Shown here piece after piece: positions 5,498 to 9,002 of a stretch of DNA of 64,000 nucleotides. The notes under the pieces were generated by a model that saw only the letters and a program-made list of their open reading frames with translations, ran no database searches and was not told the origin of the DNA. This DNA comes from an uncultured Flavobacteriia bacterium (lineage in GTDB: Bacteria > Bacteroidota > Bacteroidia > Flavobacteriales_D > Crocinitomicaceae). Within the stretch, counting starts at the first letter, position 1. Each line of letters starts with the position of its first letter. The translations under genes and the position numbers were made by a program. The stretch lies in assembly GCA_903873915.1 (NCBI GenBank), contig CAIQQH010000008.1:1-64000 (forward strand), in the 5' to 3' direction.

Positions 5498-5723
5498 GAT
5501 TTTAAGACAAAAGACTCGTCAGCCGCAGCTGACTGAAAGACGAAGGACAAAAGACCTTAACCATACTTCGGTGGCTGAGGTTCCGAAGGAAGTCTCGAAG
5601 TCACCGGTTGGATTTTAAGACAAAAGACTCGTCAGCCGCAGCTGACTGAAAGACAAAGGACAAAAGACTCAATTATGTTTCGGTGACTAAAGCAAAAAAG
5701 GAGCACTCAATTGTACTCCTTCT
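5498..5723. repeat. Two tandem copies of a ~113-bp repeat
   Basis: A 58-bp block (5498-5555) returns at 5611-5668 with one mismatch, and the similarity continues more weakly to give a 113-bp period. Each block contains the inverted repeat GTCAGC-CGCA-GCTGAC flanked by purine-rich AAGACAAAAGAC strings. Between the blocks, CGGTGGCT...AAGTCACCG forms a long imperfect stem resembling common REP-like intergenic palindromes. It does not encode a protein. The second unit runs into the terminator of the small RNA at 5694. Confidence 0.75.
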
Positions 5724-5791
5724 CGTTACCTAACCTAAACCTAACTAAACTACTGCTGTCTATGAATTCCGGGAACCACCCCGGGTGTTTT
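5694..5791 (-). ncRNA. Candidate small RNA, copy 1 (two hairpins, own promoter and terminator)
   Basis: Read on the minus strand: a TATCTTTG box (5798-5805), then a 5-bp GC hairpin with loop GTGGTT (5769-5784), a UUAGG-rich unpaired linker, and a terminator hairpin followed by six T (5694-5722). A second copy at 8790-8882 has the same order of elements. The hairpin stems differ between copies by changes that keep or nearly keep pairing (CCGGG/CCCGG here, ACGGG/CCCGT there), while the GTGGTT loop and a 25-nt linker segment are identical. Length is about 98 nt. I do not recognise the family. It could also be read as a 3' leader or attenuator, but the promoter in front argues for an independent RNA. 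Confidence 0.6.
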
Positions 5792-5797
5792 ATGATT

Positions 5798-5805
5798 CAA
5801 AGATA
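5798..5805 (-). promoter_or_regulatory. Promoter -7 box of small RNA copy 1
   Basis: TATCTTTG on the minus strand. Farther upstream, at 5842-5863, an ACTGAAA...CTGCTTC block is shared with copy 2, suggesting a regulator site. The -33 position reads CTTT rather than TTTG. Confidence 0.5.
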
Positions 5806-5928
5806 TCGTCAGGTTTAGAGTGTGGGAAAGAAATAGTTGTGCGACTGAAGCAGTTTCAGTAAAAGCGCTTAGTTCTTCTACGTAGTTCTACTTATCAGAA
5901 GTCACCTTAAGTGGTTTCTTGGGATTGA

Positions 5929-6897
5929 TTAATGGTAGGAAACAAGATTTTTAGACTTTTCATCCCAAAGTTTTAGCGACAAACATCGGCGGATTTCTTT
6001 CCATTGGAGCGACGTTGTTTTGGGATTTTGAAGAATTGGAACATCACGCATCACTTCAGGTAAACGATAGAAGGGTATTCGCGCGTTGATGTGATGAATA
6101 TGATGGTAACCGATATTCCCCGTAAACCAATGCATGATGCGATTTGTCTTCATAAAACTTGACGATTCCATGGCTGCATCAATGTAGCTCCATTGCTCAT
6201 CGGACATATACCTTGCTGTTGGAAAATTGTGCTGGGCATAGAAAAGATATGCACCCAAGCCACCGGAGATAAAATGAGGAATCAAGGTAAAAAAGATACT
6301 TGTAGACCACCCGAAATGAATGAAAATAAATACATGAAGAGTGAAATAGAAACTCAAGGCAAAAATGGCTTCTTTGTTTTTAGAAAAACTTACAATCAAT
6401 GGGTGAATGCACATCCCGACGAGAAAAGAAAAGATGAACCCATTAACAATCACGAAAGGATGTCGGATAAACATATACTGACGCTGCTGTTGTGCATTGA
6501 GTTCTTGGAAACGACCTAAGGTAAACATCGGATAGGATCCAATTCCTGATTTAAACAACTTTGAATTGTGATCATGGTGATAATTGTGGGACCTGCGCCA
6601 AACAACTTTCGGACACAACACATAGTACCCAAAAATAGAAAATAGAACTGTCGCGATTCTATTTTCTTTTAAAATTGCGAGATGTAAATAATCGTGGTAA
6701 ATGACAAACATGCGAACGATCAGTAAACCACAGAGTATACTTAGTGGAAGTTTAATACTCCAATGTAAATGCATGGTTAATGCGACTAAATTCGCAATCA
6801 AGAGCAACAAGGTGGAGAGCGTTAGCCACCAACTTTTCAATCGATTTTCGTGCGCGTATGCTGCGGTTATAGCCAACAGGTCTTCGTTCGTTTTCAT
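5929..6897 (-). CDS. Membrane fatty acid desaturase family protein (second of the operon)
   Basis: An integral membrane di-iron protein of 322 residues. The three histidine boxes are visible: HDYLH (about residue 68), HNYHHDH (about 105) and HHIHH near residue 265. Several hydrophobic stretches (LLLLIANLVALTM, IFALSFYFTLHVFIFI) form the usual hairpin TM pairs. The family introduces double bonds or hydroxyl groups into acyl chains, sphingoid bases or carotenoids; the substrate cannot be read from the sequence. The start overlaps the stop of the upstream desaturase by 4 bp, so the two are translated together. It is the last gene of a three-gene operon. Confidence 0.82.
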   Translation of the reverse strand: MKTNEDLLAITAAYAHENRLKSWWLTLSTLLLLIANLVALTMHLHWSIKLPLSILCGLLIVRMFVIYHDYLHLAILKENRIATVLFSIFGYYVLCPKVVWRRSHNYHHDHNSKLFKSGIGSYPMFTLGRFQELNAQQQRQYMFIRHPFVIVNGFIFSFLVGMCIHPLIVSFSKNKEAIFALSFYFTLHVFIFIHFGWSTSIFFTLIPHFISGGLGAYLFYAQHNFPTARYMSDEQWSYIDAAMESSSFMKTNRIMHWFTGNIGYHHIHHINARIPFYRLPEVMRDVPILQNPKTTSLQWKEIRRCLSLKLWDEKSKNLVSYH

Positions 6898-7982
6898 TGT
6901 ACAGTAATTGCAGTTTTTGAATTTTTGCTGAGCAATCGAAAATGCGAAATGACAGCAGAGATTAAATACTTTTTACTTCGGTATGGGTAATTGTATTTTT
7001 GACAGGTTTCAACCAAGATCTTGGTTAGCTCGGGATAATGGATATGGCAAATATGTGGGCACAAATGATGGATTACATGAAAATTAAACCCACCAAAAAG
7101 AGTCAAAATAAAAGGATTTGATTTACCAAAATCTGAAGCAGTCAAGACCTGATGGTAAGACCAACTGTGCGGCAGTTCATTGTTTTCATTCGGTTCTGGA
7201 AACTGAGCATCTTCACCAACATGTGTGCTTAAGAGTACAAAAGTGATGACCAAACTTCCAAGCACGGTTAAAAGAAAAAATGCAGAGAGTGCAAAAAGCC
7301 AACTCAACTTTAATACTAGGACAGGTAAAACAATAAATTGAAACAAATAGAACAATTTAAAAAAGATCATTTGTACCAATTGTTTTTTGGGATAATTGCT
7401 ATTGTCGAATACGCCAATTCTTTTGGAAAAAGCATCTTTGAAATCCCGGTATAATACCCATCGGAAAATATAGAGCATATACACCACTGGCATGTATAGG
7501 TGCTGAAACCGATGGTATATACGATGCCTATCTTTGGGGAAAATTTTTACAACACTGGTCTGCTGAATATCAGAATCGTAATTCATAATGTTCGGATACA
7601 CATGGTGAGCACCCAAATGCCTATTGACCCAGTTGTATGAATTTGTTCCAAGGAGATCAAACACCATTAACAATGTTTGATTGTCTTTTCTTCGTTTGAA
7701 GATGGCATTGTGCGCGGCATCATGGCCTATGTTAAGACCTAAAAAGACAGACCATGCCCCAAGGAAGGCATAGAGTAAATAAATGAAAAAATGATTTCCA
7801 TCCACCCAAAAAATGGATAAATACCCTAAAATGTATAATAGCGTCATTAGCACTAGTTTCATTTTCATGGCATTGTTGGCGTAATGGGTGAGATTGTTTG
7901 ACTTGAAATAGTCGTCAATCCTTTCTTTTAGCTCATTCAGAAAATTCGAGTTCTCGCGAGAGAATGAAATGTTTTCTATCAT
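6894..7982 (-). CDS. Acyl-lipid / acyl-CoA desaturase (FADS-like)
   Basis: This 362-residue membrane desaturase has boxes GHDAAH, HLGAHH and HVIHHLCPHICHIHY, the spacing of front-end or linoleoyl-type desaturases. The protein starts with a hydrophilic helix (ENISFSRENSNFLNELKERI) that resembles the N-terminus of bacterial delta-desaturases in Flavobacteriales. Four or more TM helices lie between the boxes. The start overlaps the GNAT gene by 4 bp and its stop overlaps the next desaturase by 4 bp. Two unlike desaturases in one operon suggests consecutive steps on one lipid (inference). Confidence 0.87.
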   Translation of the reverse strand: MIENISFSRENSNFLNELKERIDDYFKSNNLTHYANNAMKMKLVLMTLLYILGYLSIFWVDGNHFFIYLLYAFLGAWSVFLGLNIGHDAAHNAIFKRRKDNQTLLMVFDLLGTNSYNWVNRHLGAHHVYPNIMNYDSDIQQTSVVKIFPKDRHRIYHRFQHLYMPVVYMLYIFRWVLYRDFKDAFSKRIGVFDNSNYPKKQLVQMIFFKLFYLFQFIVLPVLVLKLSWLFALSAFFLLTVLGSLVITFVLLSTHVGEDAQFPEPNENNELPHSWSYHQVLTASDFGKSNPFILTLFGGFNFHVIHHLCPHICHIHYPELTKILVETCQKYNYPYRSKKYLISAVISHFRLLSKNSKTAITVQ

Positions 7983-8578
7983 AGTAATGTGCTTTTTGAT
8001 GCCGGTTCCCGTTTAAAAAACCAAACCGTTAAATCTGTGAATGGATGTTTCATTTCCGCATATTCGACATAGCCACTGGACTGGTACAACTTTCGTACAC
8101 GAGGAACTGTTGTTTCAATAAAGATGCACAAATCGGACTCGTCACTTGAAGCAAACATTTTGTGTTTGATTTCAAAAGCCGTTTTTGACGTTCGACGTTC
8201 CTTATCCGTTGCTACCAAAAGACCTAACAACCCATTTTTATGTCGGACAGATGCAATAATTTTCTGGTATTGAATGGCCTTTAATCCATTTCTGACGCCC
8301 GTGATAAATAAAAGAACATAGAGACGAAGAAAGATTAATCGCAGTGAAGTAACTTTTTGATTGACTTGAAAAAATAAGACTGCCCCATTTTGGTCACTTG
8401 TAATAAATGCACCTTTCTTGGCTTGAGATTCATAAAACAACAAACGGATAATCCATTTTCGTTGCTTTAGATTTGTAGGATCCTTTACCATCCAATAAAC
8501 GCCAAGTGAATCGATGAAGGCATCTTCTAAGATCTCAATCGCCCTTTGTGCATCATCCCGTGTCTGAACTAATTTCAT
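7979..8578 (-). CDS. GNAT-like acetyltransferase, first gene of the desaturase operon
   Basis: A 199-residue protein with the layout of a GNAT fold. LLGLLVATDKERRTSKTA falls where the acetyl-CoA binding strand and helix lie, although the canonical Q/RxxGxG/A loop is degenerate. LCIFIETTVPRVRKLYQSSGYVEY matches the C-terminal GNAT segment ending in GF/Y. The middle contains two hydrophobic runs (LRLIFLRLYVLLFITGV), so it may touch the membrane. Translational coupling to two desaturases suggests N-acylation of a lipid or polyamine intermediate (inference). The family is broad, so the substrate is unknown. Confidence 0.6.
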   Translation of the reverse strand: MKLVQTRDDAQRAIEILEDAFIDSLGVYWMVKDPTNLKQRKWIIRLLFYESQAKKGAFITSDQNGAVLFFQVNQKVTSLRLIFLRLYVLLFITGVRNGLKAIQYQKIIASVRHKNGLLGLLVATDKERRTSKTAFEIKHKMFASSDESDLCIFIETTVPRVRKLYQSSGYVEYAEMKHPFTDLTVWFFKREPASKSTLL

Positions 8579-8656
8579 TTCAATGGTTTAAGTAATCAAT
8601 AGTACAGAGAATATAGTCCCCCGCATTACTGAATTGCGCCAACACAAAAATGACAC

Positions 8657-8671
8657 TTGCGAATTACGCAA
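8657..8671. promoter_or_regulatory. Inverted repeat upstream of the GNAT/desaturase operon
   Basis: TTGCGAATTACGCAA is a perfect 5-bp inverted repeat with a 5-bp spacer, 79 bp upstream of the operon start. A related imperfect palindrome (GCATTACTGAATTGC) lies about 35 bp closer. Both could be operator sites. No standard -7 box was found here. Confidence 0.3.
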
Positions 8672-8789
8672 CTAAATTTTCCAATGTTTTAATGATTTCA
8701 AAAAATTCAATCATGAAGGAAAAAACTACTTTCAACGAATTTGATTTTGAACCCATTGTCCTCAAGGCTGAATAAAATAGTTTAAAACT

Positions 8790-8882
8790 AAAAAAGGAGC
8801 ACTTGATGTACCCCTTTTTGTTACCTAACCTAAACCTAACTAAAACTACTGCTATGAAAAACGGGAACCACCCCGTTGTTCT
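8790..8882 (-). ncRNA. Candidate small RNA, copy 2 (two hairpins, own promoter and terminator)
   Basis: Same layout as the element at 5694-5791: a TATATTTG box (8889-8896), a 6-bp hairpin with loop GTGGTT (8860-8877), the UUAGG-rich linker, then a 12-bp terminator hairpin with a T run (8790-8819). Here the terminator stem has a G-T pair where copy 1 has A-T, and the first stem starts ACGGG instead of CCGGG with matching changes on the other arm. Those paired changes support an RNA structure. This copy ends about 210 bp upstream of the GNAT gene on the same strand, so it is not simply that operon's leader. Confidence 0.6.
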
Positions 8883-8888
8883 GTGTAT

Positions 8889-8920
8889 CAAATATAGGGT
8901 GTGGAATGACGACATGTCAA
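8889..8920 (-). promoter_or_regulatory. Promoter of small RNA copy 2
   Basis: The minus strand reads TTG, a 21-nt spacer, then TATATTTG. This is a good match to the Bacteroidota -33/-7 promoter. The ACTGAAA...CTGCTTC block shared with copy 1 lies at 8931-8953. Confidence 0.6.
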
Positions 8921-9002
8921 GGATTTGACGTCGAAGCAGCTCACTTTCAGTAATCCTGCGTAATAGAACTACTTAGAACTACTTAGCATGGTGGATAAAA
9001 AC

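Follow-up and report, generated by a model that had tools for sequence, protein, structure and literature searches.

The window analysed here, 64,000 nt of contig CAIQQH010000008.1 (GCA_903873915.1) from an uncultured Flavobacteriia bacterium of the Crocinitomicaceae, carries two elements that are well supported, on the strength of promoter, terminator and conserved pairing, as genes for a small non-coding RNA (sRNA). The family to which they belong is real, is absent from Rfam and was not found in the limited literature searched; its members, on equally well-supported motif evidence, appear to share a promoter signal with genes for SprB-repeat proteins and SprB-linked subtilases. The two copies, A (8790-8897) and B (5694-5806), are 82% identical across 112 nt, a match with an E-value of 6.3e-22 at the DNA level and thus far beyond chance. 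The first-pass annotation had described a duplicated sRNA made of two minus-strand elements with a common order of parts; direct reading and alignment bear out that order, and A and B are real, but the genome itself (G000) holds three copies rather than two, the third, C, being found on another contig by nucleotide search (G000:C88:27313-27415). The same search across 60 relatives gave strong matches in four genomes of the same genus (G004, G008, G011 and G016), and three positions recur in sister species: A upstream of an operon of one GNAT-like and two desaturase genes, B downstream of it, and C elsewhere, after a conserved gene. When named genomes were scanned for exact matches to the hairpin core plus TTCATA, only MAG records matching the sister genomes came up. 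Between copy B and the dus gene, direct repeats of the GACTGAAAGAC(G/A)AAGGACAAAAGAC type can be seen by eye at positions 5500-5680.

Table 1. Features of the sRNA copies, their neighbourhood and a related own-genome sRNA (window positions unless a contig is named).
Feature	Position	Strand	Remarks
sRNA copy A, predicted transcript	8790-8884	minus	about 95 nt; cmsearch 116.4 bits at 8790-8897; promoter to terminator kept in sister genomes; 5' end placed from the -7 box
Copy A upstream repeat CTAAGTAGTTCTAAGTAG	8969-8986	minus	CTACGTAG-NN-CTACGTAG motif
Copy A TACTGAAAGT block	8943-8952	minus	between repeats and promoter; kept in promoter alignment
Copy A -7 box TATATTTG	8889-8896	minus	TAnnTTTG type
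Copy A hairpin 1	8861-8876	minus	loop GTGGTT; core CGGGGTGGTTCCCG; outer pair A-U
Copy A candidate seed TTTTTCATAGCAGTAGTTTTAG	8840-8861	minus	antisense to start region (..CTACTGCTATGAAAAA); putative start-codon pairing; block kept in distant relatives
Copy A UUAGG-rich linker	8820-8844	minus	25 nt, identical to B
Copy A Rho-independent terminator	8790-8819	minus	with T run
sRNA copy B, predicted transcript	5694-5794	minus	about 100 nt; cmsearch 117.9 bits at 5694-5806
Copy B upstream repeat ATAAGTAGAACTACGTAG	5878-5895	minus	CTACGTAG type
Copy B ACTGAAA..TTCAGT block	5844-5861	minus	between repeats and promoter
Copy B -7 box TATCTTTG	5798-5805	minus	TAnnTTTG type
Copy B hairpin 1	5769-5784	minus	loop GTGGTT; outer pair C-G, a compensatory change relative to copies A (A-U) and C (U-A)
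Copy B candidate seed GAATTCATAGACAGCAGTAG	5750-5769	minus	diverged from A
Copy B UUAGG-rich linker	5725-5749	minus	25 nt, identical to A
Copy B Rho-independent terminator	5694-5724	minus	with T run
Operon between A and B	5929-8578	minus	GNAT-like protein and two fatty acid desaturases; neighbourhood kept in sister genomes
GNAT-like protein	7979-8578	minus	recognised by eye; no Pfam or NCBIfam match
Fatty acid desaturases	6894-7982 and 5929-6897	minus	PF00487 in both
D-type sRNA, own genome	G000:C85:5264-5358 (L069:1265-1359)	minus	related seed behind sigma-54-type promoter TGGCAC..TTTGA

A covariance model, a check suggested in the first-pass annotation, was built from 13 full copies (A and B included), which also make up the structure alignment, with one partial copy bringing the core comparison to 14. 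The pairing evidence rests on these 13, since A and B alone would be thin. RNAalifold and pair counts give two helices in which all counted cells pair and 17 cells have changed on both sides; the covariation score comes to 0.285, compared with 0.185 ± 0.017 for shuffles, none of 500 of which attains the observed value, and no slid register approaches it; single copies fold 3.0-4.2 standard deviations below shuffles. The core of hairpin 1 is invariant in 14 of 14 copies, the partial one included, its outer pair is A-U, C-G or U-A depending on the copy (with one mismatch, in copy B of G008), and the terminator shows four compensatory pairs among the 13 copies. The initial observation that the stem differences between A and B keep pairing therefore holds in the wider alignment. 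Every variable wobble in the paired columns, read on the minus strand, is G-U or U-G and none is A-C, which identifies the minus strand as the RNA. The elements combine an independent promoter and terminator with conserved structure and no long ORF, and the transcript of copy A lacks an ATG. Compensatory changes, G-U wobbles and a kept -7 box likewise sustain the earlier description of an sRNA with its own promoter and terminator, and an Rfam search gave no family at cutoff for the A and B elements, in keeping with the statement that no known family was recognised. One may argue that the plus strand is the functional one and encodes a short peptide that begins M-(K/N)-x-G-N-H-P, behind a conserved leader, as the invariant core reads GNHP on that strand in all three own-genome copies (by eye). 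This is hardly credible, given that the reading frames end at differing lengths, that the helix changes allow G-U and never A-C on the minus strand, and that the conserved -7 box points the opposite way.

Copy A lies some 210 nt before the GNAT gene and copy B some 230 nt before dus, each on the strand of the gene that follows, and these positions would also suit cis-acting leaders or attenuators, with A governing read-through into the GNAT-desaturase operon, B into dus, and the hairpin sensing a signal. Such a role is distinctly unlikely, as in the sister genomes examined copy C, with the same promoter and structure, has no gene downstream on its own strand, a tRNA-Leu and an opposite-strand gene coming next; moreover, every full copy keeps its terminator, and the consensus yields no predicted alternative antiterminator helix. 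For the sRNAs, the desaturase operon is a neighbour and the link is positional only, because copy C, also conserved, sits at a locus unrelated to it, and the start regions of the operon are unremarkable as predicted targets.

The promoter region ties the sRNAs to other genes. The TAT and TTT columns of the -7 box are invariant across all copies, and the ACTGAAA block noted in the first-pass annotation is present upstream (a GCTGAAA-type block occurs in SprB-gene promoters too), but the conserved region extends further than that block, to CTACGTAG-type repeats about 89 nt upstream of the -7 region. The spacing from this motif to the start of the model is 89-90 nt in A, B and C; the candidate in G017 and one of those in G009 likewise have 89. 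If two mismatches at most are allowed, the repeat pattern has five sites in the own genome, namely A, B, C and two before SprB-repeat genes. Across six genomes, 22 of 22 distinct motif sites (two overlapping G008 matches taken as one) precede an A/B/C-type sRNA or a SprB-repeat or SprB-linked subtilase gene, compared with about five matches for a reversed control pattern; SprB and Peptidase_S8 were confirmed by Pfam, one SprB match lying just below cutoff. The sRNAs and a secreted-protein regulon thus have a cis signal in common. Elsewhere in the genus, SprB-like and subtilase-like genes (by eye from protein starts) also have the motif upstream, as do the more diverged sRNA candidates of G009, G013 and G017; several further sites there lie beside other neighbours or lack a clear one. 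No such repeats turned up upstream of copies A and B in G016, and a literature search for the CTACGTAG motif with Bacteroidetes returned none.

On balance we favour the reading that A, B and C are paralogous, start-codon-directed trans-acting sRNAs of about 90-100 nt that form the RNA arm of the SprB/subtilase regulon. A regulator binding the CTACGTAG-type repeats upstream of the housekeeping-type TAnnTTTG promoter would switch on the sRNAs and the SprB-repeat and SprB-linked subtilase genes together. The RNA carries a GC hairpin near its 5' end, followed by a single-stranded seed (UUUUUCAUAGCAGUAGUUUUAG) with the UUAGG repeats and the terminator, and the seed would pair across the start codon of its target and block initiation, as FopS does in Bacteroides. 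In UUUUUCAUAGCAGUAGUUUUAG, the unpaired stretch, the sequence is antisense to a start region of the AUGAAAA kind and covers AUG, the A-rich codons after it and leader bases before it, so start-codon pairing is the likely, if still hypothetical, action. The 25-nt linker, identical in both elements as first described, is itself a plausible seed, and the core seed is more likely the conserved block immediately 5' of it, which is antisense to the start codon. The seed beside the hairpin reads GAATTCATAGACAGCAGTAG in B versus TTTTTCATAGCAGTAG in A, and the B version is identical in three of five B copies and slightly different in G011 and G016. Candidate partners, by putative binding, are RRM proteins of the RbpB kind, which have two matches each in the own genome, G004, G008 and G001 and one each in G011 and G016. 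That RRM proteins are encoded in these genomes, that the UUAGG-type repeats vary in number among copies and are always kept, and that GGTTAGGTA has four intergenic occurrences and none inside genes in 1.38 Mb of the own genome would also fit an RNA that mainly titrates a protein (RRM or other) through the repeats, as CsrB does CsrA, instead of base pairing. We consider titration unlikely, since it leaves unexplained an antisense-to-start block that is conserved at least as well as the repeats across the family.

This block, as UUUUCAUA-GUAGUAG, is common together with the linker and terminator to diverged sRNAs across the family. Model R1, whose E-values are rough and some of whose weaker matches are chance, gives weaker matches in many family genomes, and many of its best matches share GTTTTCATAAGTAGTAGTAGTTTAGG..TTAGGTA and a terminator. 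Of these sRNAs, here called D-type, many have a sigma-54-type promoter, TGGCAC-N4/5-TTTGA, at a fixed distance, some stand in tandem arrays and several lie beside lepA (gene recognised by eye). Besides the own-genome member (Table 1), they occur at L049, L055, L060, L062 and L074-L076, in tandem at L060 and L074-L076 and followed in several cases by lepA. Qrr sRNAs of Vibrio are likewise multicopy and sigma-54-driven, a likeness of description that concerns the D-type relatives only, as A-C use the TAnnTTTG promoter and not sigma-54. Genomes with the 17-nt seed pattern cluster in this taxonomic family: it is present in 68 of 299 genomes of the order sample, nearly all of them Crocinitomicaceae, and in 18 of 297 of the phylum sample, about the control level. 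Rfam AsrC matches below threshold at L055, L053, L059, L069 and L070 may reflect protein-coding sequence and not RNA, since several of the loci are near lepA. A GTTAGG linker and terminator, with other seeds, also mark two more sRNA candidates of the own genome, L188:2519-2634 on the minus strand and L179:14201-14302 on the plus strand, and the former carries TTTTCATAG in a hairpin loop.

The targets of the sRNAs can be inferred only weakly. Prediction covered about 1.38 Mb, about half of the own genome, and pairing at start windows (-14 kcal/mol or lower) is moderately enriched for three seeds relative to dinucleotide shuffles: seed A reaches 335 genes versus 218 ± 31, seed C 227 versus 144 ± 30, and seed D 148 versus 103 ± 22. 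Seed B shows no start-window enrichment over such shuffles, windows inside genes are nearly equal to start windows for seed A (288 versus 335), and the in-register pairing test is not significant. The best candidate is L133:8073-8840, which encodes a probable membrane protein of 255 aa with no assigned Pfam family and is the top-ranked target of A and B and the third-ranked of C and D; its energy is reached by 11 of 60 shuffled seeds and is not significant alone, and the pairing is not comparable with sRNA-less genomes, since full-length matches to the protein occur only in G000, G004, G011 and G016. For a leader reading CTAAAC(C/T)TAAAAACTACTGTACTTATGGAAAAG, the predicted pairing with the sRNAs runs through its start codon, and from TAAAAACTACTG onward this leader stays the same in four genomes that differ in the part upstream. 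SprB genes are unsupported as targets of A-C (ranks 458-1016 of 1028), and the desaturase operon and dus are not outstanding (ranks 35-769 of 1028). A genome-wide leader consensus matching the seed was also discarded, an exact own-genome pattern search having picked up mainly coding sequence along with the D-type sRNA, with the register test as above.

In layout and proposed action, the nearest described family is FopS (BTncRNA_FopS, RF04319). In Bacteroides thetaiotaomicron, FopS and GibS are multicopy paralogous sRNAs with a housekeeping-type promoter, and FopS blocks translation by pairing by the start codon of susC-type genes, a repression countered by RbpB (PMC11697453). Like FopS, A-C are paralogous and multicopy and have a single-stranded seed of similar sequence (FopS consensus GUGUUUUUCAUgGUAUUAGAUUUAAGGUUA) followed by a Rho-independent terminator, but they differ in an extra 5' GC hairpin with an invariant core, a longer UUAGG linker, a different regulon and a Flavobacteriales lineage. 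Membership of RF04319 was rejected, copy A scoring 24.9 bits against a gathering cutoff of 56; over 60 genomes that model found no relative above cutoff, its best match being A in the own genome and the A copy of G008 in G008. Among Flavobacteria, Rfp18 of Flavobacterium psychrophilum is tied to secreted proteases and pairs through its third stem-loop, and Rfp36 of the same species is listed among alternative sigma factor promoters (PMC9723704). Compared by description only, both resemble the present sRNAs in their tie to secreted proteases or an alternative sigma factor, and Rfp18 differs in pairing via that third stem-loop. A broader and more tentative possibility is a family-wide class of start-codon-directed sRNAs, in which one seed module stands behind interchangeable promoters, either sigma-54-type (often in arrays, and in several genomes beside lepA) or under the CTACGTAG control of SprB/subtilase genes; A-C would then be the post-transcriptional arm of a secreted-protein regulon, and FopS a distant relative or a parallel invention.

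To our knowledge, most of what is known about base-pairing sRNAs in Bacteroidota comes from gut Bacteroides. The family described here is conserved and multicopy, belongs to an environmental lineage of Flavobacteriales and offers a defined promoter motif that is shared, named genes with the same motif and a testable seed, and it raises the question of whether FopS-like start-codon seeds are an old trait of the phylum or have arisen more than once.
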